Assembly (NCBI RefSeq): GCF_001921215.1
Contig: NZ_MSIF01000002.1
Location: 310,001-374,000, forward strand
Length of the DNA stretch: 64,000 nt
Origin: Actinophytocola xinjiangensis
GTDB lineage: Bacteria > Actinomycetota > Actinomycetes > Mycobacteriales > Pseudonocardiaceae
Direction: 5' to 3'
Position 1 is the first letter of the stretch. Every line of letters starts with the position of its first letter. A program made the position numbers and the translations under genes. The notes below the pieces were generated by a model. That model did no database searches. It saw nothing but the letters and a program-made list of their open reading frames with translations, and was not told the DNA's origin. This document shows, piece by piece, positions 25,133 to 41,873 of this stretch.

Positions 25133-25405
25133 ATGATGGACGAATATCAGGTGTCCACCGTCAGGTCGGAAACCGGGACGGGCCATGTCCCGTTCGGCAT
25201 GACCTATCTCCTGGCGGGCATCGCGCCTGGTAGCCGCCCGGCTCGTTCGGACGCGTTCACCCGTTCGTGGATTCTGGTGGCGCAGGTACGCTGGTCAGAG
25301 CCAGATCGGTCGACATCGGCGGGGGCAGATGAGCGTGTCCGGACTGTGGAGAGGTGCCGACCAGGGCCGGCGTTGTGCTGGTTGCGGAACCATGCTGGCC
25401 GGTGA
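25133..25405 (+). CDS. Possible small ORF overlapping the start of the XRE gene
   Basis: An AGGAGG six bases before ATGATG starts a 90-residue frame (MMDEYQVSTVRSETGTG...) that runs 77 bases into the XRE regulator gene in another frame. The ribosome binding site is the best in this locus, but the C-terminal half merely overlaps the known gene and I recognise no domain. It may be a leader peptide, a real small protein, or chance. Confidence 0.25.
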   Translation: MMDEYQVSTVRSETGTGHVPFGMTYLLAGIAPGSRPARSDAFTRSWILVAQVRWSEPDRSTSAGADERVRTVERCRPGPALCWLRNHAGR

Positions 25406-26786
25406 CAACACCGCACGTCTGTGCGGTAGGTGCCATCGGGAGCAACGTGACCAACTACGGACACCGCCGACTCAGCTCAGGAACGAGTTCTTCGAGACGG
25501 ACGAGTTCTGGCTGGCGTTCGAGAGCCGGCACATCGGAAAGATCTTCAAGGCGTTCCGTAACCACCCTCGTCATCTCCAGTTGTTCGGCAAGGCGTTGAA
25601 CCAGGAGCTGCTCGGTCGATGGCTGGGTCTGAACCAGACGCAGGTCAGCAAGATTGAGAACGCCAAGCGGCCGGAACAGAACATCGAGACGCTACAGAAG
25701 TACGCGCGCATCCTCCATCTGCCGCAACATCTGCTCTGGTTCGACCTTCCGGGACGAAGTCGCCTGCAAGACCTGCGTACGCAGGGTGGCGAGAGCACGC
25801 CCGGGTCTCCGAACGAGGAGCTGATCGCGGCGACCGGTATGGACACTTTGGAACTGCTGCACCGCGTGCGCACGTCGGCCATCGACACCGCGACGGTCGA
25901 CGCGCTGACCATCACCGTGGACCAGCTGTGCTGCGACTACCAGCACGCGGACGCCCGCACGCTCATCACCGCCGGTAGGGGATGGCTGGCCAAGGTCACC
26001 GACCTGCTCGGGAACCGACTCTCGCTCGCCCAGCACCGCGAGATACTCACCAACGCCGGGATGCTTGCGCTGCTGGTCGGCTGCCTGGAGTACGACCTCG
26101 GCGACGCGGTTGCCGCCGAGTCGACCCGGCGGATGGCGCTGGCGCTGGGCCAGGAGGCCGGTGATCCCGGCCTCGTCGGCTGGGCCCACGAGATGCTTGC
26201 CTGGTTCCAGCTCACGACCGGTCACCACCGTGCCGTACTTCCCGTGGCAGACGCCGGAATCCGGGCCGCGCCCACTCGCTCGGTGGCGGTGCAACTGCTC
26301 GGCCAGCAGGCGAAGGCCCACGCGCGGATGGGGAGGCCGGAGAAGGTCCATGAGGCGCTGGAACGTGGTCGGGCACTGCTGGACCAGCTGCCGTACCCGG
26401 ACCGACCGGACCACCATTTCGTGGTCGACCCAGACAAGTGGGACTTCTACGCCATGGACATCTACCGCATCGTCGGCGAGGACCGGCTGGCCGGGCGCAA
26501 CGCCGATGAGGTGATCCGCCGCAGTGTGAACTCCGACGGTGTCGTGGTCTCACCCATGCGCCGTGCCGAGGCGCAGCTGACGCTGGCCGTCATCGCCGCA
26601 CGGCAGGGTGACCTGGACGAGGCGACGTCCCTGGGCCTGGAGGCGTTGCGGGAGGGCCGTCGAAGCCGCCCGTCCCTGCTGATGGTCGCCGGTGAACTCG
26701 AACGGGAGATCCGCTCCCACGGCTCGGGCGCTGGAACGGAGTTCACCGCACTACTGGCGGATCTCCAGCGTGCTCCCCTCACGTGA
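25329..26786 (+). CDS. Zinc-ribbon XRE-family regulator with TPR-like sensor domain
   Basis: A 485-residue regulator. Residues 16-35 hold a zinc ribbon (CAGC ... CGRC); a Cro/C1 helix-turn-helix lies near 80-130 (ELLGRWLGLNQTQVSKIENA); the rest is alpha-helical repeats of the TPR-like kind common in actinomycete XRE regulators that sense small ligands. The ATG follows GGGGGCAG. The gene is divergent from the three small genes and convergent with the GH20 gene, overlapping its end by eight bases. The ligand and targets are unknown; the divergent small operon is the natural candidate. Confidence 0.82.
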   Translation: MSVSGLWRGADQGRRCAGCGTMLAGDNTARLCGRCHREQRDQLRTPPTQLRNEFFETDEFWLAFESRHIGKIFKAFRNHPRHLQLFGKALNQELLGRWLGLNQTQVSKIENAKRPEQNIETLQKYARILHLPQHLLWFDLPGRSRLQDLRTQGGESTPGSPNEELIAATGMDTLELLHRVRTSAIDTATVDALTITVDQLCCDYQHADARTLITAGRGWLAKVTDLLGNRLSLAQHREILTNAGMLALLVGCLEYDLGDAVAAESTRRMALALGQEAGDPGLVGWAHEMLAWFQLTTGHHRAVLPVADAGIRAAPTRSVAVQLLGQQAKAHARMGRPEKVHEALERGRALLDQLPYPDRPDHHFVVDPDKWDFYAMDIYRIVGEDRLAGRNADEVIRRSVNSDGVVVSPMRRAEAQLTLAVIAARQGDLDEATSLGLEALREGRRSRPSLLMVAGELEREIRSHGSGAGTEFTALLADLQRAPLT

Positions 26787-28239
26787 GGTTCCTGGGTCGG
26801 CCCGGTACTCCGGGGCGGGTTTGCCACGGGTGGGGGCCGGTCAGCGGTCGGTACTCGACTCCGAGGGCGTCGAGGCGGGGAAGGTGGTGGCGTTCCAGCC
26901 GACGGCGGAACTCGTCGTAGGAGCGGGGGCCGTCGGACCACACGACCTCGGCGAAGGCTGACAGGCGGGGGAACGCGGCGTAGTCGATCCGCCGGGGGGT
27001 GTCGAGGTGTTCGGTCCACAGCTGGGCCTGGGCGCCCAGCACCCCCGCCGCCGGTTCGTAGGCGTAGACGTCGGCCAGGGTGCGTAGGTAGCCGACGGGG
27101 ATCGGCTCGTCGGGGTGGTCGGACTGGCGGTGGTCGAGGTAGGTGTGTTGTTCGGGGCACAACACCACCTCGCGGCCCGACTCGATGGCTCGGCGGCCGT
27201 TGTCGCGCCAGGCGCCGATGATGGTGGACGGGGGCAGCGGGCCGGTGTCGAGGAGTTCGTCCCAGCCCAGGGCGCGGCGGCCCAGGGTGGCCAGGTGGTC
27301 CACCAACTGGGAGACGAACCAGCCGTGCAGGTGCGCCGGGGACGGCAGACCCAGGTCGACGGCGCGTTGGCGGACCGCCGGGCTCGCGGTCCACTGGGTG
27401 GTGGGGACCTCGTCCCCGCCCACGCAGATCACGGGGGAGGGGAAGACCGACGCCACATGGGTGAGGACCTCGCGATAGAACTCCACCGCCTCGTCGGTGG
27501 GGTTGAGGATGTTCTCGCTGACACCCCACGCCGTCCAGACCGGCAGCTCCGCCCCGGTGACGCCCAGCCACGGGTACGCGGCGATCGCCGCCTGGCTGTG
27601 GCCGGGCACGTCGATCTCCGGCACCACCGTGATGTGCCGGGCCGCCGCGTAGGCGACGATCTCGCGCAGGTCATCGGTCGTGTAGTAGCCGCCGTGTGGT
27701 CTCCCGTCGTGGTCGGGCGTTCCGTCCGGTTGGCGGCCGACCCACGAACCCGCCCGCCACGCGCCCACCGACGTGAGCCGGGGATGGGCGGGGATCTCGA
27801 TGCGCCAACCCTGGTCGTCGGTCAGGTGCAGGTGCAGGACGTTGAGGCGGTGGACCGCCATCAGGTCCAGGAAACGCAGCACCCCCGCCTTGGGCAGGAA
27901 GTGCCGGGCCACGTCCAGCAGACACCCCCGCCACCCGAACCGGGGATGGTCCTCGATCAGGCCGCAGGGCAACGTCCACTCACCCTCGTGGATGTCGGCG
28001 GCGCGGAAGGCGTCCGGACCCAGCAGTTGGCGCAGGGCGCCTTCGGCGTAGTACGCGCCGGCCGCGTCGGCGGCGACGGTGGTGACCGCGCTGGGGGTGA
28101 TGGTGACGCGGAAACCCCGGGGGACGGCGACCGGGTCGACGGTCAGGACCGTCGACACCTGGGACGGCAGGCCGGTCAGGCGGTACACCCCGGCCGCCGG
28201 GTCCACCCGCACCGGGCGGGGAAGCAGGGCCTCGAACAT
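26779..28239 (-). CDS. Beta-N-acetylhexosaminidase, GH20, intracellular
   Basis: A 486-residue GH20 enzyme. The N-terminal alpha/beta domain (about residues 1-95) precedes the TIM barrel, with the catalytic Asp-Glu pair at 276-277 in GGDEVP and the substrate-holding HLHLTDDQGW and WTEHL. No signal peptide or lipobox, so it acts in the cytoplasm on imported chitobiose-like or other beta-HexNAc oligosaccharides, releasing HexNAc. It starts four bases after the permease stop, last gene of the importer operon. This pairing of an intracellular GH20 with a DasR-type ABC importer fits chitin or peptidoglycan amino-sugar uptake. Confidence 0.93.
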   Translation of the reverse strand: MFEALLPRPVRVDPAAGVYRLTGLPSQVSTVLTVDPVAVPRGFRVTITPSAVTTVAADAAGAYYAEGALRQLLGPDAFRAADIHEGEWTLPCGLIEDHPRFGWRGCLLDVARHFLPKAGVLRFLDLMAVHRLNVLHLHLTDDQGWRIEIPAHPRLTSVGAWRAGSWVGRQPDGTPDHDGRPHGGYYTTDDLREIVAYAAARHITVVPEIDVPGHSQAAIAAYPWLGVTGAELPVWTAWGVSENILNPTDEAVEFYREVLTHVASVFPSPVICVGGDEVPTTQWTASPAVRQRAVDLGLPSPAHLHGWFVSQLVDHLATLGRRALGWDELLDTGPLPPSTIIGAWRDNGRRAIESGREVVLCPEQHTYLDHRQSDHPDEPIPVGYLRTLADVYAYEPAAGVLGAQAQLWTEHLDTPRRIDYAAFPRLSAFAEVVWSDGPRSYDEFRRRLERHHLPRLDALGVEYRPLTGPHPWQTRPGVPGRPRNLT

Positions 28240-28242
28240 GTG

Positions 28243-29076
28243 TCACCCCTTGAGTGCGCCGCCCAGGCCGGAGACCAGGTGGCGTTGGACAACGACGAAG
28301 AACACCAGCACCGGCACCGTCATCAGCGTCGCACCCGCCATGATCGCGCCCCAGTCCTGCTCCTCGGGCTTGAAGAACACCAACAGCCCCAACGGAAGCG
28401 TGCGGTTGTCGGTGCCGGAGATGAGGAACGTCCTGGCGAACAGGAAGTCGTTCCACGCGTGGATGAACGACAGCACACTCGCCGCCACCAGGCCCGGCGC
28501 CACCAGCGGGAACAGCACCCGCCAGGTGAACCGGAACCGCGACGCGCCGTCCAGCGCGGCCGCCTCCTCCAGCTCCACCGGCACCGCCGCGACGAAACCG
28601 CGCAACATCCAGATCGCGAACGGCAGACTGAACGCCAGATGCACCAACACCAGCGACCCCAGCTGGTTGAGCCCCACCGCCGGCACCACCTCGCCGAACG
28701 AACGCATCAGGAAGAACAGCGGAATCGTCAGCGCCTCCACCGGCACCATCTGCGCCACCAGCAACATCACCAGCAGCACCGTGCGGCCACGGAACCGGAA
28801 CCGGGTCAGCGCCACCGCAGCCAGGAACGCCGCCACCAGCGACAGCGCCACCACCAGCAACGCCACCACCAGACTGTTCACGAAGTACAGCCCGAAGTTC
28901 TGCACGTCGAGCACCCGGCGGAAGCTGTCCAGCGACGGCGCCAGCGTCCACGGCCTCGGATCGGCCGACTGGATCTCGCCCGGCGGCTTCAGCGCGGCCA
29001 GCACCATCCAGTACAGCGGGAACGCCACCGCCGCCGCGATCAGCACGCACGCGGCGTTCGCCGCCCGCCGCCTCAC
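28243..29076 (-). CDS. Carbohydrate ABC transporter permease, MalG/DasC type
   Basis: A 277-residue inner-membrane permease with six predicted helices and the EAA loop ELEEAAALDGASRFRFTWRV, which contacts the ATPase. The GTG start overlaps the stop of the partner permease (GTGA), and two permeases of this size make the usual heterodimeric importer core. No ATPase gene is adjacent; actinomycete sugar importers commonly share a single ATPase (MsiK), so one encoded elsewhere is presumed. Confidence 0.92.
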   Translation of the reverse strand: MRRRAANAACVLIAAAVAFPLYWMVLAALKPPGEIQSADPRPWTLAPSLDSFRRVLDVQNFGLYFVNSLVVALLVVALSLVAAFLAAVALTRFRFRGRTVLLVMLLVAQMVPVEALTIPLFFLMRSFGEVVPAVGLNQLGSLVLVHLAFSLPFAIWMLRGFVAAVPVELEEAAALDGASRFRFTWRVLFPLVAPGLVAASVLSFIHAWNDFLFARTFLISGTDNRTLPLGLLVFFKPEEQDWGAIMAGATLMTVPVLVFFVVVQRHLVSGLGGALKG

Positions 29077-30011
29077 CGGCGGATCCTCAGGTACACCACG
29101 GTGATCAGCATCAGCAGCACCGTCATCACCACACCGATCGCCGCGCCGAGGCCGTAGCGCTGTCCGGCGAACGCCTCCTGGTAGGCGAACACGTTGAGCA
29201 CCAGGTTCTGCCCGGCCACCCCGCCACCGTTGGTCATCACGTAGATCTGGGTGAAGACCTTGAAGTCCCAGATGGTCGACTGCACGGTCGCGATCGCGAT
29301 CAGCGGCCGCAGGATCGGCAGCAGGACCGAGGTCGCCGTGCGGGTCGCCGACGCGCCGTCCAGCGCCGCCGCCTCCACGACCTCCCTCGGGATCGCGCTG
29401 ATACCGGCGTACATGGTCACCATGACGAACGGGAACGAGCACCAGATGATCTCCCCGGCGACCAGGCCGAACGCCGAGAACCGGCCGAAGGTCCACGAAT
29501 GCCCGTCCACCGCCAGGCCCAGCGTCGAGAGCACCTCGTTGACCAGGCCGAAGTCCTGGTCGAACAGGAACAGCCACACGTAGGAGCCGGCCATCGCCGG
29601 GGTCGCCCACGCGCCGAGCGCCGCCAGGAACAGCAGCTTGCGCGCCCACGGGCTCGCCCGGGTGGCCAGCACCGCCAGCGCCGTGCCGACCAGCAGGCTG
29701 CCGCCGACACACACCGCCGCGAACAGCACGGTCGCGGCCAGCACGTCCCAGAACCGCGGGTCGCCCAGCAGCGACACGTAGTTCTCGAAGCCGAGGAACA
29801 CCAGCGGCGCCGCGCCGGCCGCCTGCGGCTGGCCGTAGTCGTAGAGCGAGATGACGACCAGTTGGTAGAGCGGGTAGGCCAGCAGGCCGACCAACACCAC
29901 CCCGGCCGGCACCAGGTACAGCAGCGCCGAGCGGGTCTCGCCTCGGTGGAGCCCCTGTCGCGCCGCACGGGTGCGGGCGTCCGGCGCGACAGGGGTGATC
30001 GGGGGCGCCAT
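29073..30011 (-). CDS. Carbohydrate ABC transporter permease, MalF/DasB type
   Basis: A 312-residue permease with an N-terminal cytoplasmic tail, six or seven membrane helices and the EAA-type loop REVVEAAALDGASATRTATS. It follows the binding-protein gene by ten bases and overlaps its partner permease. The ribosome binding site is weak, which suggests translation coupled to the upstream gene. Substrate is inferred from the neighbouring hexosaminidase and DasR-like operator. Confidence 0.92.
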   Translation of the reverse strand: MAPPITPVAPDARTRAARQGLHRGETRSALLYLVPAGVVLVGLLAYPLYQLVVISLYDYGQPQAAGAAPLVFLGFENYVSLLGDPRFWDVLAATVLFAAVCVGGSLLVGTALAVLATRASPWARKLLFLAALGAWATPAMAGSYVWLFLFDQDFGLVNEVLSTLGLAVDGHSWTFGRFSAFGLVAGEIIWCSFPFVMVTMYAGISAIPREVVEAAALDGASATRTATSVLLPILRPLIAIATVQSTIWDFKVFTQIYVMTNGGGVAGQNLVLNVFAYQEAFAGQRYGLGAAIGVVMTVLLMLITVVYLRIRR

Positions 30012-30021
30012 CAGCGGCCGG

Positions 30022-31311
30022 TCACCCGGCGAACGCGGCGTCCATCTCGGCCGCGGCGGCCGAGGTCGCCGTGTTCACGTCCAGCTCGCCGGTGGCGACC
30101 TGTTGCAGCGCGGTCGGCAGCACGGCCTGCGCGTCGATCTGGGTCCAGGCCGGGGTGGCCGGGACGAAACGCGTGCCGGCCTGAACGGTCTCGATGAACG
30201 GCACCAGGAACTCGTCGTCACCGGCGATGCCGTCCTGGACGTCGGTGAAGGTCGGCATGGTGCCCATCGCGTCGTACATGGCGCGCTGGTAGTCCTTGCC
30301 GCCCAACAGTCGCACGAACTCCCAGCCGAGCTGGCGGCGGTCGCTGGAGCGCAGCACGCCGAGCAGGTTGCCGCCGGCGAAGGCGGGGGCGATCTGGCCG
30401 TCGGTCGTGCCGGGCAGCGGGACCACCCCGTACTTCCCCTTGACCGCGCCCTCGTCGACCGCGGCCCGGTTGAAGTCGCCGCCGATGGTCATCGCCGCCT
30501 TGCCACCGGCGAACGCGGCCACCGACTGGCTGCCGGTGAGCTGCGCGCACTGGGCCGGCGGGCAGATGTCCGGCGTGATCAGCTCGGCGTACCGGGCGAA
30601 ACCCGCACGCGCGGCCGGGCTGTCGATGGTGGCCGACCACGCGTCGCCGTCTCGTTCGGCGATGTCGCCGCCGTGGGCCCACACGTAGGGCAGCAGGGCG
30701 AACAGGTACTTGCCGCCGACCGCGATCCCGTACAGGTCGGGTTTCGCCGCGCGGATCGCGCGCGCCGTCTCGGTCAGCTCGGCGAGCGTGGCCGGCGGCT
30801 CGAGCCCCAGCTCGGTGAACACGTCGGTGCGGTAGTAGAGCGCGCGGGTGCCGGTGAACCACGGCACGCCGTAGACCTTGTCGTCGATCGTGGCGGTGTC
30901 CAGCACGTCGGGCACCAGGTCGGCGCCCTCGTCCCAGGCGTCGAGGTCGGCGGTGAGGTCGGCGAAGCCGTTGGACGCGGCGTAGCCGGCGAGGTCGGTG
31001 TTGCCGAACTCGGCGACGTCCGGGGCGCTCGCCGGGTCGTTGAACGCGCCGTTGAACCGGGGGGCGCGGCCGTCGACCGGCAGGTACTCGACGTTGACCG
31101 TGACGCCCTCGTGCGCCTGCTCGAACTCGGCGACGGCCCGGTCGACCACCGCCTCCTTCGGACCGTTGCTGGCCTCCTGGAACAGCCACACGGTCAGCTC
31201 GCCGGTGGTCTCCCCGCCGCCCTGATCACCGGTGTTGTCCGCCTGCGGCGGCGCGCACGCGGCAACGACGGTGACGACCAGGACGGTGGCGCAGGCATGG
31301 CGAAACCTCAT
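30022..31311 (-). CDS. Sugar-binding lipoprotein of ABC transporter (DasA/MalE class)
   Basis: A 429-residue extracellular solute-binding protein. The lipobox VVAAC puts the lipidated Cys at residue 19, and the mature protein starts with a disordered linker followed by the strand ELTVWLF typical of family 1 sugar-binding proteins. Conserved elements PWFTGTRALYYRTDVF and AAMTIGGDFNRAA are in the family pattern. ATG is preceded by GGGGGTCC. It is first in the importer operon and directly downstream of a DasR-like site; chito-oligosaccharide or GlcNAc-type ligands are inferred, not shown. Confidence 0.9.
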   Translation of the reverse strand: MRFRHACATVLVVTVVAACAPPQADNTGDQGGGETTGELTVWLFQEASNGPKEAVVDRAVAEFEQAHEGVTVNVEYLPVDGRAPRFNGAFNDPASAPDVAEFGNTDLAGYAASNGFADLTADLDAWDEGADLVPDVLDTATIDDKVYGVPWFTGTRALYYRTDVFTELGLEPPATLAELTETARAIRAAKPDLYGIAVGGKYLFALLPYVWAHGGDIAERDGDAWSATIDSPAARAGFARYAELITPDICPPAQCAQLTGSQSVAAFAGGKAAMTIGGDFNRAAVDEGAVKGKYGVVPLPGTTDGQIAPAFAGGNLLGVLRSSDRRQLGWEFVRLLGGKDYQRAMYDAMGTMPTFTDVQDGIAGDDEFLVPFIETVQAGTRFVPATPAWTQIDAQAVLPTALQQVATGELDVNTATSAAAAEMDAAFAG

Positions 31312-31375
31312 CGGACCCCCAGCAGCCGCGACGCTCCGGACACTTCGGATGCTAGGCGCCACAAGGGGTCCGCAC

Positions 31376-31389
31376 AAGGTCTAAACCAA
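31376..31389 (-). promoter_or_regulatory. DasR-responsive element (dre)-like operator
   Basis: AAGGTCTAAACCAA contains GGTCTAAACC, which matches nine of ten bases of the dre core GGTCTAGACC from the known consensus ACTGGTCTAGACCACT. It lies about 65 bases upstream of the binding-lipoprotein start, the classical position for DasR control of N-acetylglucosamine importers. It also overlaps the stop region of the upstream aldolase gene. Match seen directly; DasR binding is inferred. Confidence 0.65.
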
Positions 31390-31394
31390 TGTCG

Positions 31395-32021
31395 TCAGCC
31401 TGCCTCGGCCACCGCCGCGACGAACTCCCTGGCCCGCTCGCCGATCTCGGCCAGCCGGGACTCGGCGGCCAGCGCGGCACCGACGACCCCGCTGCCGGCG
31501 CAGACCGCGAGCGCCCCGGCGGCCAGGTAGCTCGCCGCGTTCCCGGTGGTGACCCCGCCGGTGGCGACCAGCGGAACGTCCGGGTACGGGCCGTGCAGGT
31601 CGCTGAAGTAGGCCGGGCCCAGTCGCGCGGCCGGGAACACCTTGACCGCGGTCGCACCGAGGTCCACGGCGGCGGCGACCTCGGTCGGGGTCATCGCGCC
31701 GAGCACCACCGGCACCTTCTGCCGGACCGCCTCGGCGGCGACCTCCGGGCGCAGGCCCGGGGTGAGCAGGAACGACGCCCCTGCCGAGATCGCGTCCCGG
31801 GCGTCCTGGGCGGACATGACCGTGCCGGCACCGATCACGATTCCGTCCACTGTGGACGCCTGCTCGATGAGCCGGGGGGCGTCCGGTGTGGTCAGCGCGA
31901 ACTCGACGATCGGCAGGCCGGCCCCGACCAGGGTCCCGGCGAGCCCGACCGGGTCCGGGATGGCCGGCGCGCGGATGATGCACAGCGTGCGGCGGGCGGT
32001 CAGTTCGGCGAGCAGGTCCAT
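31395..32021 (-). CDS. eda: KDPG / KHG aldolase
   Basis: A 208-residue class I aldolase that splits 2-keto-3-deoxy-6-phosphogluconate into pyruvate and glyceraldehyde 3-phosphate. The Schiff-base Lys is about residue 127 in AVKVFPA and the catalytic Glu about residue 40 in PIVEFALTT; GAGTV and TGGVTTGN complete the barrel. It follows the deaminase-like gene by 18 bases on the same strand and faces the kinase gene that would make its substrate. Together these suggest a KDG branch rather than a full Entner-Doudoroff pathway, since no 6-phosphogluconate dehydratase is present. Confidence 0.92.
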   Translation of the reverse strand: MDLLAELTARRTLCIIRAPAIPDPVGLAGTLVGAGLPIVEFALTTPDAPRLIEQASTVDGIVIGAGTVMSAQDARDAISAGASFLLTPGLRPEVAAEAVRQKVPVVLGAMTPTEVAAAVDLGATAVKVFPAARLGPAYFSDLHGPYPDVPLVATGGVTTGNAASYLAAGALAVCAGSGVVGAALAAESRLAEIGERAREFVAAVAEAG

Positions 32022-32039
32022 CGTTCTCCTTGATACTGA

Positions 32040-33326
32040 TCAGAAGTAGGTGCGGACGAGGTCGACGACCATGCCGTCGTCGACCACCGGGATCAGCGTC
32101 CACTTGTCGAACGCCGTACACGGGTGGGAGATGCCGAGACCGACCCGGTCGCCGACCGCCAGCGAGTCGTGCCGGACGTAGGCGTGCTGGTCGTTGACCT
32201 TGAACACGGTCGCGGTCAGCGGCTCCTCGGTCGTGGCGCCGCGCCGCCGGACCACCTCCGGGTTGGGCAGGTCGGAGTCGAACGGTACGTCCCGGCGTCC
32301 GGCGGTGAGCAGCGCCAGCCCCGGCTCCGGCGCGGAGGTGACCTCCGCCCAGATCCGCACGGCCGGCCGCAGCGGCGCCGCGTCGCTGATCCGGGGTGAC
32401 TCGCCCAGCGGCGACTGGCGGCGGTAGGTGCCGGCGTCGTGGGTGACGTAGGCGCCGCTGCGCACCACCGGCAGCACCGGCAGCCCGCCGGGCCACGGCC
32501 CGGCGAACACCTGCGCCACCTGGTCGAAGTAGGCGCTGCCGCCGGCGGTGACGATCACCTCGGCCACGCCGTCGAAGTGTCCCCGCCCGGCCAGTTCCCC
32601 GGTCAGCGTGCGCAGTCCGTCCAGCCACGCGTGCACCCGGCCCAGCGCCTCGGCGGTGGTGTCGTGGGTGACCGGGCCCTCGTAGCCGCCGACGCCGACC
32701 AGCCGCAGCGCCGGGCTCGCGGCCACCGCCTCGGCGACCGCCACCCCCTCGGCCAGGTCCCGCACGCCGGTCCGCCCGCCGGGGACACCCTGTTCCACCA
32801 GCACGTCCACCGGCCGGCGGGTGCCGCGCAGGCCCTCGGTCATCAGCTCGACGCCGCGCACCGAGTCCACCCAGCAGCGGAACCCGAATGACGGGTCGCG
32901 GTCGAGTTCCCTGCCCAGCCAGGCCAGCCCGGCGGGGTCGACCAGCTGGTTGGCCAGCAGGACCTGGTCGACGCCGAAGGCCCGGTAGACCCGCAGCTGG
33001 CTCAGGTTCGCGCAGGTCTGGCCCCAGGCGCCGTGGTCGAACTGCCGGGCGAACAGCTGCGGGGCCATCGTGGTCTTGCCGTGCGGGGCGTGTGCGAGGC
33101 CGTGGGCGGCGCACCAGCCGGCGAACGTGGCGAGGTTGTGTTCCAGCGCACCGGCGTCCAGCGTCATCAGCGGCAGGACGAAACCGCCGGTGGCCAGCTC
33201 GCGCCGCTCGGTGACCAGGTCGCCGATGGTCGTGCCCGGCGGCAGGTCCGGCATGCCCTTGAAGCGGTGGTCGACGGGTTCGTCGCGGATCGCGGCGACG
33301 GCGTCTCGGTCCAGCTGCCCGGCCAT
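32040..33326 (-). CDS. PLP-dependent D-amino-acid deaminase/dehydratase (DSD1 / D-threonine aldolase-like)
   Basis: A 428-residue fold-type III PLP enzyme. The N-terminal alanine-racemase-like barrel carries the PLP lysine near residue 84 (HAPHGKTTMAP). The C-terminal beta domain has the metal pair His401 and Cys403 (SHPCTAFDKW) that defines metal-dependent D-serine dehydratases and D-threonine aldolases. Such enzymes eliminate ammonia from beta-hydroxy D-amino acids to give keto acids. Context is striking: KDPG aldolase directly downstream, KDG kinase and RidA on the opposite strand, hexosaminidase and amino-sugar importer beyond. An amino-sugar acid such as D-glucosaminate is therefore a plausible substrate; plain D-serine or D-threonine remain possible. 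Confidence 0.82.
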   Translation of the reverse strand: MAGQLDRDAVAAIRDEPVDHRFKGMPDLPPGTTIGDLVTERRELATGGFVLPLMTLDAGALEHNLATFAGWCAAHGLAHAPHGKTTMAPQLFARQFDHGAWGQTCANLSQLRVYRAFGVDQVLLANQLVDPAGLAWLGRELDRDPSFGFRCWVDSVRGVELMTEGLRGTRRPVDVLVEQGVPGGRTGVRDLAEGVAVAEAVAASPALRLVGVGGYEGPVTHDTTAEALGRVHAWLDGLRTLTGELAGRGHFDGVAEVIVTAGGSAYFDQVAQVFAGPWPGGLPVLPVVRSGAYVTHDAGTYRRQSPLGESPRISDAAPLRPAVRIWAEVTSAPEPGLALLTAGRRDVPFDSDLPNPEVVRRRGATTEEPLTATVFKVNDQHAYVRHDSLAVGDRVGLGISHPCTAFDKWTLIPVVDDGMVVDLVRTYF

Positions 33327-33333
33327 GAGGCTC

Positions 33334-33362
33334 CTATTGCGTCATATGCAACGGCTATTGCG
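33334..33362 (+). promoter_or_regulatory. Direct repeats in the deaminase/kinase spacer
   Basis: CTATTGCG occurs at 33334 and 33355, 21 bases (two helical turns) apart. The first copy is part of a loose inverted repeat TTGCGTCATATGCAA. The spacer is AT-rich and lies between the divergent deaminase and kinase genes, so it is a likely operator for the IclR regulator encoded downstream. Visual call. Confidence 0.45.
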
Positions 33363-33432
33363 CTATGTGCCGCACTGGTGTGTAGCATCTCGTTGCCCGA
33401 CCAGTCAACGCGAGTCCGAGGAGGTCAGCGGC

Positions 33433-34392
33433 GTGGAGGTGCTCTGTCTGGGCGAGTCCATGGCGCTGTTCGTGCCGGCGCAGGACGGTCCGCCCGAGTC
33501 CGTTCGCACCTGGTCACGGACCGTCGGCGGCGCCGAGTCCAACGTGGCCTGCCACCTGGCCGGCCTCGGCGTGCCGTCGGCCTGGGTCAGCGCCGTCGGC
33601 GACGACGCGTTCGGCCGCGCGGTCACCGCCTTCGTCGGCGGCTACGGCGTGGACGTCTCCGGCGTGCTGGTCGACCCCGACCGGCCGACCGGCCTCTACG
33701 TCAAGGAGTCCGACGGCAGCCCGGTGCGCTACTACCGGCGCGGCTCGGCCGCCTCCGCGCTGGGCCCTGACCTGCTGCCGAAGCTGCCGCTGGACGGCGT
33801 GCGGCTGGTCCACACCAGCGGCATCACGCCCGCCCTGTCGGACTCCTGCCTGGCGTTGATGCGCGAGCTGTTCGCGCTCCCACGGACCCACCTGCTGTCC
33901 TTCGACCTCAACTGGCGCCCGGCGCTGTGGCCCGGCCGCGACCCCGACGTGCTGCGTGAGCTGGCCGCCGCCGCCGACATCGTGCTGGTCGGCGCCGACG
34001 AGGCGGCCACCGTCTGGGGCACCGACGGCCCGGCCGCGATCCGCGCCCTGCTGCCCGAACCCGCCACGCTCGTGGTCAAGCAGGCCGCCGACGGCGCGAC
34101 GCTGATCGAACGCGACCCGGCCACCGGCGAGGACCGGCCCGAGGTGTTCACGCCCGCGCTGCGGGTGGACGTGGTGGAGGAGGTCGGCGCGGGCGACGCG
34201 TTCGCCGCCGGGTTCCTCGCCGCCACCCTGCACGGCACCGCCGGCCCCGGCCACCGGCTGCGCGCCGGCCACCTGCAGGCCGCCGCCGTGCTGCGCACCC
34301 GCGACGACGTCTGCGGGCCCCTGCCGGCGGACACCGTCGAGCGCCTGCTGGCCGCCGACGACGCGCAGTGGGCGGCGGCCCACATCCGGTGA
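33433..34392 (+). CDS. kdgK: PfkB-family sugar kinase, 2-keto-3-deoxygluconate kinase type
   Basis: A 319-residue ribokinase-fold kinase. N-terminal GESMALFVPAQDGPP and VGGAESNVACHLAGLG, ligand loop DRPTGLYVKE, and the ATP/anion-hole motif VGAGDAFAAGF are present. KdgK phosphorylates 2-keto-3-deoxygluconate to KDPG, the substrate of the aldolase encoded across the divergent spacer. GTG start with AGGAGG about seven bases before. The IclR gene starts on its stop (GTGA). Specificity for KDG is inferred from sequence type and neighbours; other ketose kinases of this family are alternatives. Confidence 0.82.
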   Translation: MEVLCLGESMALFVPAQDGPPESVRTWSRTVGGAESNVACHLAGLGVPSAWVSAVGDDAFGRAVTAFVGGYGVDVSGVLVDPDRPTGLYVKESDGSPVRYYRRGSAASALGPDLLPKLPLDGVRLVHTSGITPALSDSCLALMRELFALPRTHLLSFDLNWRPALWPGRDPDVLRELAAAADIVLVGADEAATVWGTDGPAAIRALLPEPATLVVKQAADGATLIERDPATGEDRPEVFTPALRVDVVEEVGAGDAFAAGFLAATLHGTAGPGHRLRAGHLQAAAVLRTRDDVCGPLPADTVERLLAADDAQWAAAHIR

Positions 34393-35168
34393 GCCAGAGC
34401 CTGGACCGGGCGTTGGCCCTGCTCGACGAACTGGCCGACGGCCCCAAGAACCTCGACCAGCTCGCCGTGCGGGTCGGGGTGCACAAGTCGACCGTGCTGC
34501 GGCTGCTGCGCACGCTGGAGGCGCGCCGGTTCGTGCAGCGCGCCGACGCGCGCCACTACCGGCTCGGCCCGTCGCTGTTCGACCTGGCCTTCCGGGCCCT
34601 GGACGAACGCGACGTGCGCCGCGCGGTCGAGCCGGCGGCCAGGGAACTCAACGCCGCCACCGGACACACCGTCCACCTCGCGTCCTATGAGGACGGTGAG
34701 GTGATCTACATCGACAAGTACGAGTCCCGGCACAACGTGCGGATGTACTCGCGCATCGGCCGGCGCGCCCCGCTGCACTGCACCGCCGTGGCCAAGGTCC
34801 TGCTGGCCGCGCTGCCCGACGAGGAACGTCGCCGGATCGCCGAGGGCCTGGACTACCACCGGTTCACCGCCGCCACCATCACCGGCGCGCCCGCCTTCCT
34901 CACCGAGCTGGCGACCGTGCGCTCGCGGGGTTTCGCGGTGGACGACACCGAGCACGAGGACTTCATCCACTGTCTGGCCGCCCCCGTGCGCGGCGCGCGC
35001 GGCGAGGTGCTCGCCGCGCTGTCGCTGTCGGTGCCGGTGGTGCTGCTCGACCGCGACGGGCTGCTGGCCCTCGTCCCGGCGCTGCGTGCCGCCGCGGACC
35101 GGGCGTCGGCGGAGTGTGGGTACCAGAACGGTAACCAGGACGGCTGTCAGGACAAGGAGACGCAGTGA
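34389..35168 (+). CDS. IclR family transcriptional regulator
   Basis: A 259-residue regulator with an N-terminal winged helix (LDQLAVRVGVHKSTVLRLLR, about residues 20-40) and a C-terminal IclR effector domain (RRAPLHCTAVAKVLLAALP, GFAVDDTEHE). IclR proteins of sugar-acid loci usually sense a keto-acid intermediate such as KDG or KDPG. Coupled to the kinase at its start and to RidA at its end, both by GTGA overlaps. It probably controls the divergent promoter region in front of the kinase. Confidence 0.9.
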   Translation: MSQSLDRALALLDELADGPKNLDQLAVRVGVHKSTVLRLLRTLEARRFVQRADARHYRLGPSLFDLAFRALDERDVRRAVEPAARELNAATGHTVHLASYEDGEVIYIDKYESRHNVRMYSRIGRRAPLHCTAVAKVLLAALPDEERRRIAEGLDYHRFTAATITGAPAFLTELATVRSRGFAVDDTEHEDFIHCLAAPVRGARGEVLAALSLSVPVVLLDRDGLLALVPALRAAADRASAECGYQNGNQDGCQDKETQ

Positions 35169-35545
35169 CCAAGAGCGTGATCTCGCTGCCGGAGGACCGG
35201 CGGATCTCGGTGCCGTTGAGCCACGGCATCCGCAAGGGCAACATCCTGCAGGTCGCCGGGCAGGTGGCGCTCGACCCGGCCAGCGGCGAGGTGGTCGGCA
35301 CCACGGTCGCCGAGCAGACCGTCCAGTGCCTGACCAACGTCGCGGCGATCCTGGAGGCCGGCGGCGCCAGCTTCGAGGACGTGGTGATGCTGCGCGTCTA
35401 CCTCACCGACACCGCGCACTTCGCCGAGCTGAACGAGGCCTACGCGGCGTTCCTGCCCGAGCCCTACCCCGCCCGCACGACCGTCTACGTGGGACTCCCG
35501 GCCGGTTTCCTGGTGGAGATCGACGCGCTGGCGGTACTGGACTGA
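35165..35545 (+). CDS. ridA: RidA family reactive-intermediate deaminase
   Basis: A 126-residue YjgF/YER057c/UK114 family protein. The key Arg lies in PYPARTTVYVG and the conserved Glu in LVEIDALAVL; GQVALDPASGEVVG is the family N-terminal motif. RidA hydrolyses enamine/imine intermediates released by PLP-dependent dehydratases such as 2-aminoacrylate. Its coupled position in the same locus as a PLP deaminase supports an enamine-generating deamination step there. Confidence 0.9.
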   Translation: MTKSVISLPEDRRISVPLSHGIRKGNILQVAGQVALDPASGEVVGTTVAEQTVQCLTNVAAILEAGGASFEDVVMLRVYLTDTAHFAELNEAYAAFLPEPYPARTTVYVGLPAGFLVEIDALAVLD

Positions 35546-35594: not shown

Positions 35595-37850
35595 TCAGGC
35601 CTGGTCGTCGAGGAACGACGAGATCCAGGCGAGGGCGGAGTTCCAGTTGATCGCCACCTCGTTCGTCGAGTACGACTGGATGTCGTCCACGTAGCAGAAC
35701 TGTGGCGCGCAGCCGTCCAGCAGGTCGGCGGCGAACGGGTCCTCCAGAGCGGAGTTCGCGCCGCCGGCCAGTGAGCCGGACGGCGGGTTGGGCGAGTTCG
35801 GGTCGAGCTGGCGGCCGAAGATCCGGCTGTGCTGGTTCTGCGGCGTCTTCGTTCCCCAGTCGGTGACGTAGGAGTGGTTGAGCGCGTTGCGGCCGAACAC
35901 GTAGTCCATGCCCTGCAACGCCCCCGCCCGGTAGCGGCGGTCACCGGTCAGGTCGAACGCGGTCGCCAGCACCACCGTGTTGTTGATGATGTTGCCGTTG
36001 CCGCCCCAGAAGTAGCTGTCGGCCGCGCCGGGGATCGGCACCCCGTAGGCCTGGCCGGCGATGGTCGCCAGGTACTCGTCGGCCGCCGACACCACGTCCC
36101 TGGCCATCATCAGCCGCTTGAACCAGGACAGCCGGCTCGGCACGGTCGCCAGGTCCAGCTTGGCGAGCGCGGCGGTCGATGGCCAGCTGAACCCGTTGGG
36201 CTCGAACACCTCGCCGGTGTGGTGCGGGGACGCGGTGAGGTCGGCCAGGTAGCGCTGTTCGCCGGTGGTCAGGTACAGCTCGGCGGCGGCCCAGTAGAAC
36301 TCGTCGGTCACGTCGTTGTCGCTGTAGGCGCCGCCGCCGATGCCGTCGGCCGGGTCGGCGTAGCGGGCCGGGTTGGCCTTCGCGGCGGTGTAGGCGGTCC
36401 GCGCGGCGCTCAGGCAGCGGCTGGCGAACGTGGCGTCGAAGCCCCGGTACAGCCGGCCGCACTGGGCGGCGGTGGCGGCCAGGTTCAGCGTCGCGGCGGT
36501 CGATGGCGCGTGCAGCTCACGCGGCTGCGGGTCGTCCTCGGGGGCCAGCGGCAGGCCGGTCCACGCGGCGTCGTGGATCTTGTGGTGGGCCATGCCGGCC
36601 AGTGGTTGGCCGGCCGGAACCTGCATACGCAGCAGGAACTCCAGCTCCCAGCGGGCCTCGTCGAGGATGTCGGGCACCCGGTTGCCGCGTTCGGGCACGC
36701 GCAGCGTGCTGTCGCCCAGGGCGCCCGGGGTGGCGCTGGGCGCGGTCCGGGTCCGCTCGAAGGTGCTGAGCAGCTGGTAGGTGGCGAGGCCGCCGTTCAC
36801 GACGTACTTGCCGTGGTCACCGGCGTCGTACCAGCCGCCGCGCACGTCGAGCCGGTGGTCGCAGACCCCGGCCTGGCACGGCACGTCGGTGTCGCCCTGG
36901 TTGGGCGCGACGCCGAGGTGGCCGGCGGGGCGGGCGTACTCCTGGCCGACGAGCGCGCCGTCGATCGGGAGGCCGCTGCGCTGGATGTAGAAGAACTGCA
37001 ACGAGTCCGAGCGCAGGTCGGCGTAGACGTCGCCGATGGCGAACGGGTAGCTGGTCTCGCCGTCGGCACTGAGCGTGTAGCCGGTGCCTTCGGCGGTGAC
37101 GCGGGAGAAGTCGACGCTGTGTGTGTTCTGGCCCGAGGCCGGGTCGACGCCGCGCGGGGTGGTCTGCCCGGTGGCCACGGCCGTGCCGGACGCGTTGGCC
37201 AGGGTCCAGGCCAGCGGCTGGGTGGACTCGGTGACCACGGTGGCGTTCTTCGGGCCGTCGGGCAGGTAGCCGACCTGGTTGACCCGCACCCGTGGTCCGG
37301 TGTCCGGTTCGTAGACCGGTGGTTCGGCGCCGCCGGTGAGGGAGACGTTGTCCAGGCAGAAGGTCCACGGCTGGGCTGAGCCGCCGACCTGGAAGGCCAC
37401 TTGGTCGGCGGCGCTGTCGGTGTCGGCGGTGAAGGTGTAGCTGAACGTCTGCGGCGCGGTGTCCAGGATGGTGGGCGCCGAGAGCCGTTCGGTCCACGGG
37501 TCGACCTGGAGCTGCACCTTGGCGAGCACGCCGACGGGGGCCGACGCCGAGGCGTCGAAGGTCAGCTCGTAGGTCTCGCCGGCCTGCAGGGCCAGGTCGT
37601 TCTGGCCGACGATGGCGTCCCACGGGTTCACGGTGCCGCCGGCGATCTGGGCGCAGAGTTGGCCGTCGACGACCGAGGCCGGCGCGTTGTCGGTCCACCA
37701 CCAGGGTGCGGTGCCGGAGTCGAAGGTGCCGTTGTCGATCAGTTCGGGTGGCTGCGCGGCGGCGGCGGAGGGGAACAGGGTGGCGGCGACGAGCGCGGCG
37801 GTGCCGGCGGCGACGGATCTGGCCGCGCGACGACGGAACGGGCGAGACAC
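35595..37850 (-). CDS. Secreted GH9 cellulase with N-terminal carbohydrate-binding module
   Basis: A 751-residue exported endoglucanase. It has a signal peptide (to about residue 34), a CBM4/9-like module (about 36-175, [17 protein letters not shown]), an Ig-like CelD_N domain (about 185-280, [16 protein letters not shown]) and the GH9 barrel. Catalytic base/nucleophile aspartates are in DAGD (342-345) and the acid Glu is about residue 731 in [16 protein letters not shown] is also conserved. GTG start with AAAGGA upstream. A perfect CebR operator lies 45 bases before the start, so cellobiose-responsive expression is expected. Confidence 0.93.
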
Positions 37851-37895
37851 GGCAGGGTCCTTTCCGTGGTGACGACGATGACGACCACGAGAATC

Positions 37896-37909
37896 TGGGA
37901 GCGCTCCCA
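37896..37909. promoter_or_regulatory. CebR operator, GH9 side
   Basis: TGGGAGCGCTCCCA, the 14-base palindrome recognised by the cello-oligosaccharide repressor CebR in actinomycetes, is present without mismatch and extends to a 16-base palindrome with flanking C and G. It lies 45 bases upstream of the cellulase GTG. Confidence 0.92.
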
Positions 37910-38022
37910 GTTTTCGCCACCGATCGTGGCCACGCGATGCCGTCCTTGTCAACACGCGGGCCCCGATCGGCCCGAAAAGCCGCCGATTGGCGGGATGGAA
38001 CCGGCGATCTCCCGGGTACCGT

Positions 38023-38064: not shown

Positions 38065-39306
38065 ATGTCGCGACGGCGCCGTCGCCAGGTGGCCCTGCTG
38101 GCCCCTCTGCTCGTGCTCACCCTCTCCGCCCCACTGCTGCCGGCCGCCCAGGCCAGCGACACCACCACCGACACCACCGCAACCACCGGCCCGGTGGCGT
38201 CACTGTCCGAGCTGACCGTGGTCAACGAACAGGTCGCCTTCGGCTTACAACGCCCGATCGCCCTCACCGGCCTGCCCGACGGCCGGCTGCTGATCGCCGA
38301 GAAACGGGGCACCGTCCGCGTCTACCACCCCGACACCGGACTGGCCGCCGACCCGATCCTCGACCTCACCGACAGGATCGACCCGTCGGACAACGAACGC
38401 GGCCTGCTCGGCCTCACCCCGGCGCCCGACTTCGCGCGCACCGGCATGCTCTACGTCTCCTACACCGCCCTGCCCGACGGCCGGCTCACCCTGTCCCGGA
38501 TGCCGATCACCGCGCCGGACCGCGAACAGATCCTGCTCACCCAGGACCACTCCCAGTACGGCAACCACAACGGCGGGCAGGTCGCCTTCGGCATCGACCG
38601 CTACCTGTACTGGTCACTCGGTGACGGCGGCTACGCCAACGACCCGTTCGACACCGGCCAGGACCTGACCACCCTGCTCGGCAAGATCGTGCGCATCGAC
38701 GTCGGCGGCCCGTGCGGGTCCAAGCCCTACTGCATCCCGCACGACAACCCCTTCGCCAACACCCCCGGCGCGCTGCCCGAGATCTGGGTCTACGGCGTGC
38801 GCAACGCGTGGCGCTTCTCCATCGACCCCGCCGACAACTCGCTGTGGATCGGCGACGTCGGCCAGGGCTGGCTGGAGGAGGTCAACCACGTCCGCCAGTG
38901 GCAGAGCGGCGCCAACCTCGGCTGGTCCTGCCGCGAGGGCACCACGGTGTTCGACGAGGCCCAGTGCCGCGACGGCCAGCGCTACGTCGACCCGGTCTTC
39001 GAGTACGACCACCTCGACGGCAACTGCTCGATCACCGGCGGTGTCGTCTACCGGGGCAGCCAGACCCCCGAGGCACGCGGCGTCTACCTCGCCTCGGACT
39101 ACTGCTCGACCACCGCCTTCGCCGTACGCCCCAAGCACAACGGCTACGAGAGCGCGGTCGTGGGCACCCTGCCGATCCAGCCGACGGCCATCGCGCCGGA
39201 CGCCAACGGCGAGTTGTACGTGCTCAGCGATCTGCCCGGCTGGCTCAGCCGCGTGCGGTTCGAACGGGTTGAGCAGGACTCCAGCGTCGGGGCGGCGAAT
39301 CGCTGA
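38065..39306 (+). CDS. Secreted PQQ-dependent sugar dehydrogenase
   Basis: A 413-residue six-bladed beta-propeller of the soluble glucose/sorbosone dehydrogenase class. The signal peptide ends near residue 30 (LLPAAQA-SD). Family landmarks: NERGLLGLTPAPDF, NHNGGQVAFG with the catalytic-type His, LYWSLGDGG, GVRNAWRFSID, IGDVGQGWLEEVN. It would oxidise an aldose outside the cell with PQQ and pass electrons on. TAGGAG precedes the ATG. Codon 61 is a rare TTA. Shared CebR control with a cellulase implies cellulose-derived sugars, or electron supply to other oxidative enzymes. A conventional PQQ synthesis cluster is not in the window. Confidence 0.88.
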   Translation: MSRRRRRQVALLAPLLVLTLSAPLLPAAQASDTTTDTTATTGPVASLSELTVVNEQVAFGLQRPIALTGLPDGRLLIAEKRGTVRVYHPDTGLAADPILDLTDRIDPSDNERGLLGLTPAPDFARTGMLYVSYTALPDGRLTLSRMPITAPDREQILLTQDHSQYGNHNGGQVAFGIDRYLYWSLGDGGYANDPFDTGQDLTTLLGKIVRIDVGGPCGSKPYCIPHDNPFANTPGALPEIWVYGVRNAWRFSIDPADNSLWIGDVGQGWLEEVNHVRQWQSGANLGWSCREGTTVFDEAQCRDGQRYVDPVFEYDHLDGNCSITGGVVYRGSQTPEARGVYLASDYCSTTAFAVRPKHNGYESAVVGTLPIQPTAIAPDANGELYVLSDLPGWLSRVRFERVEQDSSVGAANR

Positions 39307-40141: not shown

Positions 40142-41011
40142 ATGGACCTACGCCTTGGCGACAACCAGTACGGCAAGGCCGAGGTGCGGCTGGTGCGCGT
40201 CGACCGGGCCGAGGCCGGCCACACGGTCACCGACCTCAACGTCAGCACCGCGCTCGCCGGAGACCTGGACGCCACCCACCTCACCGGCGACAACAGCGGC
40301 GTCCTGCCGACCGACACACAGAAGAACACCGTGTACGCGTTCGCCCGCGACGGCGTCGGCGAGCCGGAGGAGTTCGGGCTGCGGCTGGCGCGCCACTTCG
40401 TCGACACCACCCCGACGATCACCAGGGCCCGGGTCCACCTGGAGCGCTACCGCTGGGAGCGGATCACCGTCGACGGCCAGCCGGCGCACCACTCGTTCGC
40501 CAGGGCGGCCGGCGTCCGCACCGCGACCGTCACCTACGACGGCACCACCGCGTGGGTCGTGTCCGGTCTGACCGACCTGACCGTCATGAACACCACCGGC
40601 TCGGAGTTCCACGGCTTCCACCGCGACCGGTTCACCACCCTGCCCGAGGCGACCGACCGGATCCTCGCCACCGCCGTGACCGCCCGCTGGCGCCACGCCA
40701 CGGACACCGCGAACTGGGCCGAGTCGTTCGGCCTCGCCCGTGGCGCGCTGCTGGAGGCCTTCGCCGACACCCACTCCCGTTCGCTGCAGCAGACCCTGCA
40801 CGCCATGGGCGAGCGGGTGCTGCGCGGCCAGCCCGACCTGGCGCAGATACGGCTCTCGCTGCCGAACAAGCACCACTTCCTGGTCGACCTGAGCCCGTTC
40901 GACCTGGACAACCCCGGCGAGGTGTTCTTCGCGGCGGACCGGCCGTACGGGTTGATCGAGGGCGAGGTGATCCGGGACGGCGCACCGGATCCCGGTCTGG
41001 CGTGGTGGTGA
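40142..41011 (+). CDS. uox: Urate oxidase (uricase)
   Basis: A 289-residue cofactor-free uricase converting urate to 5-hydroxyisourate. Conserved elements: the N-terminal YGKAEVRLVRV, the catalytic-loop GDNSGVLPTDTQKNTVYAFA with Thr, and TTGSEFHGFHRDRFTTL. Length matches the tunnel-shaped tetrameric family. The next gene, the FAD subunit of xanthine dehydrogenase, starts four bases later. Confidence 0.95.
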   Translation: MDLRLGDNQYGKAEVRLVRVDRAEAGHTVTDLNVSTALAGDLDATHLTGDNSGVLPTDTQKNTVYAFARDGVGEPEEFGLRLARHFVDTTPTITRARVHLERYRWERITVDGQPAHHSFARAAGVRTATVTYDGTTAWVVSGLTDLTVMNTTGSEFHGFHRDRFTTLPEATDRILATAVTARWRHATDTANWAESFGLARGALLEAFADTHSRSLQQTLHAMGERVLRGQPDLAQIRLSLPNKHHFLVDLSPFDLDNPGEVFFAADRPYGLIEGEVIRDGAPDPGLAWW

Positions 41012-41015
41012 TCGC

Positions 41016-41870
41016 GTGGACTTCCTGAGGCCAGGCTCGCTCGACGAGGCGCTCGCGATGAAGGCGGCGACCCCCGAGGCCGTCCCGATCGCCGGCGGCA
41101 CCGACGTCATGGTCGAGCTGAACTTCGACAAACGCCGCCCGCCGGCCCTGCTCGACCTGGGCCGGGTGGCCGAACTGTCCGGCTGGCGCACCGACGACGG
41201 CCACGTGCGCCTTGGCGCGACCGTGCCCTACGCGCGGATCGTCGGCGAACTCGGCGACCTGCTGCCGGGCCTGGCGATGGCCGCGCGCACCGTCGGCTCG
41301 CCGCAGATCCGCAACCGGGGCGGCGTCGGCGGCAACCTCGGCTCGGCGTCCCCGGCCGGGGACGCGCACCCGCCGCTGCTGGCCACCGGCGCCACCGTCG
41401 AGCTGGCCTCGGTGCGGGGCGTGCGCACGGTGCCGGCCGACGAGTTCTTCCTGGGCCCCAAGCGATCCGTGCTCGCCGCCGACGAGCTGGTCACGGCGGT
41501 CACCGTGCCGAGCGCGGCCGGGCCGCAGCAGTTCGCGAAGGTCGGCACGCGCAACGCGATGGTCATCGCGGTCTGCTCGTTCGGCCTCGCGCTGGACACC
41601 GGCACGCGCCGGGTCGGCACCGGGATCGGGTCGGCCGGCCCGACCCCGCTGCGCGCGGCGGCGGCCGAGGACTTCGCCGCGGAGGTTCTGCCCTGGGACG
41701 ACCCGCCGGCACTGACCGACGAGGTGGCCAGGGAGTTCGGCGAACTGGTCGCGGCCGCCGCGACCCCGATCGACGACGTGCGCGGCAGCGCGGCCTACCG
41801 CCGGCGCGCGTTGTCGGTTCTCGCCCGGCGCACGCTGCGTTGGGCCTGGCAGGACGTGAGGGTGAGGTAG
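41016..41870 (+). CDS. xdhB: Xanthine dehydrogenase FAD-binding subunit
   Basis: A 284-residue FAD subunit of the molybdenum hydroxylase family. The FAD-binding loop is PIAGGTDVMVELN near residue 25 and the second motif TVGSPQIRNRGGVGGNLGSASPAGD is clear (conserved core RNRGGVGGNLG). It transfers electrons from the iron-sulfur subunit to NAD or another acceptor. GTG start; it is followed three bases later by the 2Fe-2S subunit. Confidence 0.94.
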   Translation: MDFLRPGSLDEALAMKAATPEAVPIAGGTDVMVELNFDKRRPPALLDLGRVAELSGWRTDDGHVRLGATVPYARIVGELGDLLPGLAMAARTVGSPQIRNRGGVGGNLGSASPAGDAHPPLLATGATVELASVRGVRTVPADEFFLGPKRSVLAADELVTAVTVPSAAGPQQFAKVGTRNAMVIAVCSFGLALDTGTRRVGTGIGSAGPTPLRAAAAEDFAAEVLPWDDPPALTDEVAREFGELVAAAATPIDDVRGSAAYRRRALSVLARRTLRWAWQDVRVR

Positions 41871-41873
41871 CGG

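Follow-up and report, generated by a model that had tools for sequence, protein, structure and literature searches.

The gene cluster at positions 26779-35545 of the window, a 64,000-nucleotide stretch of the Actinophytocola xinjiangensis genome (assembly GCF_001921215.1, contig NZ_MSIF01000002.1, 310,001-374,000 of the forward strand), is probably a reduced version of a pathway by which actinobacteria consume the C1-oxidised ends of chitin. From the gene families and their order, a common operator, the co-occurrence with lytic polysaccharide monooxygenases (LPMOs) of auxiliary activity family 10 (AA10) and the absence of a close D-aminoacylase from the assembly, we infer the reactions, secretion, substrate and regulation in this organism. 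Where the pathway is complete, in relatives, secreted AA10 LPMOs would leave chains with an amino-sugar lactone or acid at the end, a secreted lactonase would open the lactone and an ATP-binding cassette (ABC) importer would take up the short aldonic oligosaccharide. A cytoplasmic enzyme of glycoside hydrolase family 20 (GH20) would release N-acetylglucosamine (GlcNAc) and its C1 acid (GlcNAc1A), from which a D-aminoacylase would remove acetate. The deacetylated acid (glucosaminate, GlcN1A) would be converted to 2-keto-3-deoxygluconate (KDG) and ammonia by a fold-type III pyridoxal phosphate (PLP) deaminase with the assistance of RidA. A kinase would turn KDG into 2-keto-3-deoxy-6-phosphogluconate (KDPG), and an aldolase would yield pyruvate and glyceraldehyde-3-phosphate, with an IclR protein controlling both gene sets via the common operator. 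Since the window cluster has lost the deacetylase, the lactonase and GntP and kept the rest, most likely either its substrate is oxidised ends from which the acetyl group has already been removed, or a deacetylase from elsewhere stands in.

Pfam and NCBIfam profile scans of the window proteins provided the gene calls, and all nine genes of the cluster are open and complete. On the minus strand, transcription begins with the deaminase (32040-33326; PF14031, D-ser_dehydrat, 64.5 bits, with PF01168, Ala_racemase_N) and continues through a KDPG/2-keto-4-hydroxyglutarate aldolase (31395-32021; PF01081; TIGR01182 at 159.7 bits, cut-off 156.05), the lipoprotein-like sugar-binding protein of the ABC importer (30022-31311; SBP_bac_8; PF13416/PF01547; lipobox seen by eye) and two importer permeases (29073-30011, and 28243 to about 29094 with its start not fixed; both PF00528, BPD_transp_1) to a GH20 β-N-acetylhexosaminidase (26779-28239; PF00728, 337 bits). 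The open frame of the binding protein begins with a TTG at 31377; the ATG at 31311 fits better as start. No signal sequence is visible in the GH20 protein as judged by eye, and no ATPase gene was seen alongside the importer in the cluster. Gaps of 18 bp (deaminase-aldolase), 83 bp (aldolase-binding protein), 10 bp (binding protein-permease) and 3 bp (permease-GH20), together with the overlap of the permeases, make it likely that the minus-strand genes form one operon. The divergent plus-strand set comprises a PfkB sugar kinase (from about 33433 to 34392; PF00294), an IclR-family regulator (34368-35168; PF01614, PF09339; its start overlaps the kinase end and is uncertain) and a RidA-family enamine/imine deaminase (35165-35545; PF01042). 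KdgR is the best NCBIfam model for the regulator at 182 bits, under the cut-off of 275. The layout is thus one of two divergent gene sets with one operator in common, the tandem element TTGC-N7-GCAA-N6-TTGC at 33337-33361 (strand not assigned) in the divergent deaminase-kinase promoter. All of the genes named in the preliminary description of this DNA (deaminase, kinase, aldolase, IclR, RidA, importer and an intracellular hexosaminidase) were recovered by the family scans.

The operator is the only match to its pattern in the window, with none in 100 shuffles; the pattern occurs twice in the organism's own genome, the second site having a different sequence. Of 59 divergent intergenic regions, 58 contained it. 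Over a stretch reaching from 400 bp upstream of the deaminase match to 60 bp within it, the operator scored in 75 of the 87 loci whose D-aminoacylase has at least 50% identity and in five of the six, the window included, that lack this D-aminoacylase and have a close IclR. Where both were missing it appeared in 1 of 45 loci, and it appeared in none of 3000 mononucleotide shuffles. In five relatives (L137, L064, L067, L068, L079) a single palindrome lies at or just before the binding-protein or GH20 gene, which would place those genes under the same control; palindrome matches in L118 and L121 look incidental. The IclR protein presumably binds the tandem operator.

We surveyed 200 genomes of the order, 88 of which gave a deaminase match at E ≤ 0.001; 62, including this genome, fell below 1e-60 and the others were weak (hand count). 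In 37 of the other 61 strong-match genomes we mapped the neighbourhoods of 40 loci. Of these, 17 are from the same family (L064-L080), with a D-aminoacylase in the cluster in 14, importer and GH20 in 12 and the kinase in 11. Nine frames picked in gaps of these loci included six PF10282 lactonases, and three (L064, L068, L074) matched nothing; tblastn placed a lactonase in all 12 importer/GH20 loci, L064 and L068 included. Two clusters with GH20, importer and lactonase lack the D-aminoacylase (L068 and L079, genomes G104 and G196). D-aminoacylases of 65-66% identity do occur in these two genomes outside the cluster (L229, L232), beside a MarR gene, with an AA10 gene at a distance of 31 kb and 16 kb, respectively; we do not take this as tight linkage.

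A scan of named genomes was restricted to the best 80 of 598 matches and is hence biased to close relatives. Among these 80 loci, 62 contain a D-aminoacylase (60 at an identity of at least 50%), 60 an IclR gene, 60 RidA, 42 GntP, 19 a lactonase, 14 a binding protein and 12 a GH20 gene. In 52 of the 60 loci with at least 50% identity, the D-aminoacylase is the immediate neighbour of the deaminase and has the same orientation. These 60 loci span 22 named genera (hand count from record titles), including Amycolatopsis, Saccharopolyspora, Lentzea, Streptomyces, Kitasatospora, Actinomadura and Rhodococcus. All 12 GH20 loci carry lactonase and D-aminoacylase, and nine carry the kinase. Complete sets are found in Rhodococcus rhodnii (L118), Thermocrispum agreste (L134) and a genome of the same genus (G200), and the module is visible in a Tsukamurella record under its public annotation. 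With a gene order that recurs in many genera and an operator in the divergent promoter, the association of these genes exceeds chance. The nearest solved structure to the lactonase is the gluconolactonase PpgL. A twin-arginine motif before a hydrophobic stretch was seen by eye in 13 of 14 listed lactonases (of 19), the one from L122 being without it.

C1 oxidation by an LPMO yields a lactone first. The lactonase, a signal-less GH20 following a sugar importer and the co-occurrence with AA10 genes make oxidised chitin the best fit as substrate, and a kinase with an aldolase would be expected for a sugar acid more than for a small amino acid. Of the 200 order genomes, 61 have AA10 genes. By group (counts entered by hand), they are present in all 12 genomes that combine the deaminase with importer and GH20, in 2 of 12 with the deaminase alone, in 7 of 13 with deaminase and D-aminoacylase but no GH20 (two of the 13 having a D-aminoacylase of only 36-38%) and in 40 of the remaining 163, a group to which this genome and the strong matches not among the 40 loci belong. 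The Fisher value for 12 of 12 versus 2 of 12 is 7e-5, but it is inflated by kinship, which is uncorrected, because all 12 importer/GH20 genomes belong to one family, and this weakens the case. Within that family, 22 genomes have a strong deaminase match and 21 of these carry AA10 genes, versus 3 of the 7 genomes without such a match (p 0.007), and the lone exception (G156) is also without D-aminoacylase. This genome contains five AA10 genes, none inside the cluster, and no tandem operator was found by the LPMO genes of L001-L005 or L024 at the score cut-off applied. Outside the window (L233:8243-16105; G000:C1:634242-642104), one AA10 gene adjoins genes for a CBM2 protein and for an ABC importer of the dipeptide type (SBP_bac_5, oligo_HPY ATPase), through which chitin fragments might be taken up by a second route.

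Comparison of six genomes of the genus, all of which have AA10 genes, illustrates the reduction. The D-aminoacylase sits beside the deaminase in G200-G203 (71-79% identical to the L065 protein), whereas a search of the assemblies found no close D-aminoacylase in this genome (G000) or G204, the best homologue having 39% identity. The set is complete in G200, lactonase and GntP included; G202 is without lactonase, and G201 and G203 are readable only short of the cluster end. The two gaps flanking the window aldolase show that deacetylase, GntP and lactonase are not in the cluster, and the lack of the deacetylation step weighs against the proposed pathway. Genome-wide, the best lactonase match reached 34% with two stops inside the frame; GntP was not searched at that scale. 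In a deaminase tree (quick method, SH-aLRT support only, that is, the Shimodaira-Hasegawa-like approximate likelihood ratio test), the window groups with support with G201, which has a D-aminoacylase, and G204, inside a larger group mostly with D-aminoacylase. Because the window nests in this way, the simple reading is that the D-aminoacylase was lost in its lineage, once or twice. As a replacement deacetylase we considered the only clear D-aminoacylase homologue of this genome, a 514-aa protein encoded at G000:C1:655309-656853, which lies among subtilase, P450 and major facilitator superfamily genes about 20 kb from the AA10 gene that sits by the dipeptide-type importer; this is too far for a link and leaves it a candidate only. 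In G201 the stretch between D-aminoacylase and aldolase (L204:12488-17507) contains a glycine-betaine-type importer and, next to the D-aminoacylase, a Kelch/galactose-oxidase-like protein.

The chemistry of such a pathway is already known from Pseudoalteromonas, for which Jiang et al. (2022) provided genetic and biochemical proof that LPMO-made C1-oxidised chitooligosaccharides are catabolised (PMC9537276). There, the GH20 OngA releases GlcNAc1A, the D-aminoacylase OngB deacetylates it, the fold-type III OngC produces KDG and KdgK phosphorylates KDG, while the RidA protein OngD is essential in vivo with a role unknown to the authors (PMC9537276). The authors also describe a putative KDPG aldolase gene (kdgA) added in Vibrio, Klebsiella and Serratia clusters, and complete pathways only in Gammaproteobacteria plus one betaproteobacterium (PMC9537276). 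The preliminary description had proposed the same logic, from an amino-sugar acid via KDG and KDPG to pyruvate, and this part stands, as the same enzyme classes were shown there and the neighbourhoods of relatives fit; its statement that the pathway appears to be undescribed does not, since the chemistry was published in 2022 (PMC9537276). It also missed what is most likely the source, C1-oxidised chitooligosaccharides from LPMOs, as well as the D-aminoacylase of relatives, the lactonase of a subset and the absence of the D-aminoacylase from the window cluster.

The window deaminase is the only PF14031 protein of its genome. K84, H401 and C403, which we take to be its PLP and metal residues, are invariant in 14 aligned relatives. 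The PfkB kinase is probably a KDG kinase judging from its matches: its best NCBIfam models are KDG/2-keto-3-deoxygalactonate (KDGal) kinases at 133.9 bits, under the cut-off of 400, and among solved structures it matches the Thermus KDG kinase 1v19 (E 2.8e-35).

Several findings nevertheless count against a role in oxidised chitin use and some of them would suit D-amino-acid catabolism, in which the deaminase would be a D-serine/D-threonine dehydratase (with N-acyl-D-amino acids as the source in relatives) and the kinase, aldolase and importer would serve other substrates. The nearest solved structure, 3gwq, is named a D-serine deaminase. At 43.5% identity the window deaminase is closer to L056, whose type is found in enterobacterial amino-acid-ABC clusters with IclR and RidA and without kinase or D-aminoacylase, than to OngC (35.6%, Pseudoalteromonas sp. 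CF6-2, accession CP091443, from PMC9537276). Since these enzymes are closer than OngC, orthology does not prove the substrate, and the proposed OngC-like conversion of D-glucosaminate to KDG is drawn from gene context instead. Twelve of the 80 named loci, all mycobacterial, have the deaminase without D-aminoacylase, kinase or RidA. These Mycobacterium/Mycolicibacterium deaminases (50-53%; L155, L159, L162, L164, L165, L166, L168, L170, L174, L175, L179, L186) probably serve another purpose in that lineage. The kinase is present in only 47 and the aldolase in only 9 of the 80 named loci. Finally, 6 of the 13 genomes with deaminase and D-aminoacylase but no GH20 have no AA10 gene. OngC too deaminates D-serine and D-threonine (PMC9537276), a point in favour of the rival; since OngC accepts both, the refutation test of the preliminary description is also weak. 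The recurrence of kinase, aldolase, lactonase, GH20 and sugar-type importer beside the deaminase, with the same operator, argues the other way. Moreover, a distinct cluster in G204 and G202 (L235, G204:C172; L236, G202:C1), with a dipeptide-type importer, IclR, RidA, a 37-38% D-aminoacylase and a 26-29% deaminase, looks like the true N-acyl-D-amino-acid utilisation system, separate from the main cluster. We consider D-amino-acid catabolism unlikely for the window genes.

That the window cluster is a decaying remnant, with no working pathway after the loss of the deacetylase, also seems improbable. The same-genus G204 is down to deaminase and kinase among the genes sought (19.9 kb locus), and the window deaminase has the longer end branch (0.40 versus 0.17 for G201 and 0.24 for G204 in the quick tree). 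Yet nine genes and the operator are intact, and aldolase and kinase are 88% and 83% identical to those of G201. Faster evolution of the window deaminase was considered for the longer branch, but identities differ little: it is only slightly less like outgroups (59-62%) than its sisters are (61-66%, with L206 up to 70%). The same chemistry might also act on galactosaminate or another N-acetylhexosaminate instead of oxidised chitin, as the best model for the kinase is bifunctional for KDG/KDGal, GH20 family enzymes also act on N-acetylgalactosamine, and proteobacterial clusters annotated with KDGal kinase and 2-keto-3-deoxy-6-phosphogalactonate aldolase exist. Lactonase, GH20 and AA10 co-occurrence fit oxidised chitin best, and we regard galactosaminate or another N-acetylhexosaminate as a very unlikely source.

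On its flanks, the cluster is adjoined by an NsdA-family tetratricopeptide-repeat-like regulator (25329-26786) next to the GH20 gene and by a GH9 cellulase (35595-37955, minus strand) next to RidA, with a glucose/sorbosone dehydrogenase family protein (38065-39306) after the cellulase. A cluster for purine catabolism may lie at 40142-43687, to judge from its genes for uricase, 8-oxoguanine deaminase and an FAD-binding molybdopterin dehydrogenase subunit.

Actinomycetes rank among the main degraders of chitin in soil, and several AA10 genes are present in genomes studied here. Our searches of open-access full-text literature found neither a description of their use of oxidised chitin ends nor an actinobacterial version of the pathway, and what is new here is the actinobacterial counterpart cluster. 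Because this cluster is conserved across 22 named genera and has a clear operator, the use of oxidised ends can be tested directly. Public annotation names for these families include 'alanine racemase', 'D-aminoacylase' and 'sugar kinase', and such annotations would gain precision.

Among known systems, the fold-type III D-serine dehydratase/D-threonine aldolase family has a similar domain architecture (3gwq aligned over 411 residues), while the gene context of the window is that of sugar-acid catabolism. An enzyme known to act on a phosphorylated amino-sugar acid, presumably of fold-type I, likewise converts an amino-sugar acid to a keto-deoxy acid, but differs in the phosphorylation of its substrate. 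The GlcNAc route predicted for Natrarchaeobius similarly has a glucosaminate intermediate and, in chitinase clusters, IclR and RutC-type genes; it is archaeal, predicted only, and runs via glucose dehydrogenase and glucosaminate-6-phosphate lyase (PMC12343721). The ong cluster of Pseudoalteromonas prydzensis shares GH20, fold-type III deaminase, sugar kinase and RidA with the window and the D-aminoacylase with the window's relatives. It features TonB receptors, a sodium symporter, a GH20 with signal sequence (periplasmic) and an RpiR-type regulator, with no lactonase in the part of its description seen, whereas the window has an ABC importer, an apparently cytoplasmic GH20 and an IclR protein with tandem operator, and its relatives have a lactonase. 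No sodium:solute symporter, TonB receptor or RpiR regulator of the ong type was found in the window cluster. Compared with the CF6-2 proteins, identity is 30% for RidA (OngD), 31% over only 113 residues for the kinase and 35.5% over 259 residues for GH20. The actinobacterial D-aminoacylase is about 31% identical to OngB, which itself is 51% identical to a D-aminoacylase of another context. It has GQDG where OngB has GNCG, whose Cys we take to be a metal ligand, in 83 of 87 proteins at an identity of at least 50%, four being unmatched by the expression. In the quick tree (SH-aLRT), four gammaproteobacterial OngC proteins form their own supported group apart from the actinobacterial deaminases. 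These distances and the separate OngC group are consistent with an independent assembly of the actinobacterial pathway. We tentatively propose that Actinobacteria may have assembled their own oxidised-chitin pathway largely independently of marine Gammaproteobacteria, with a secreted lactonase, ABC uptake of intact aldonic oligosaccharides, intracellular hydrolysis, the GQDG D-aminoacylase as GlcNAc1A deacetylase and an IclR regulon with a tandem operator, and that lineages of the window type later lost the deacetylase and turned to oxidised ends of the chitosan type.

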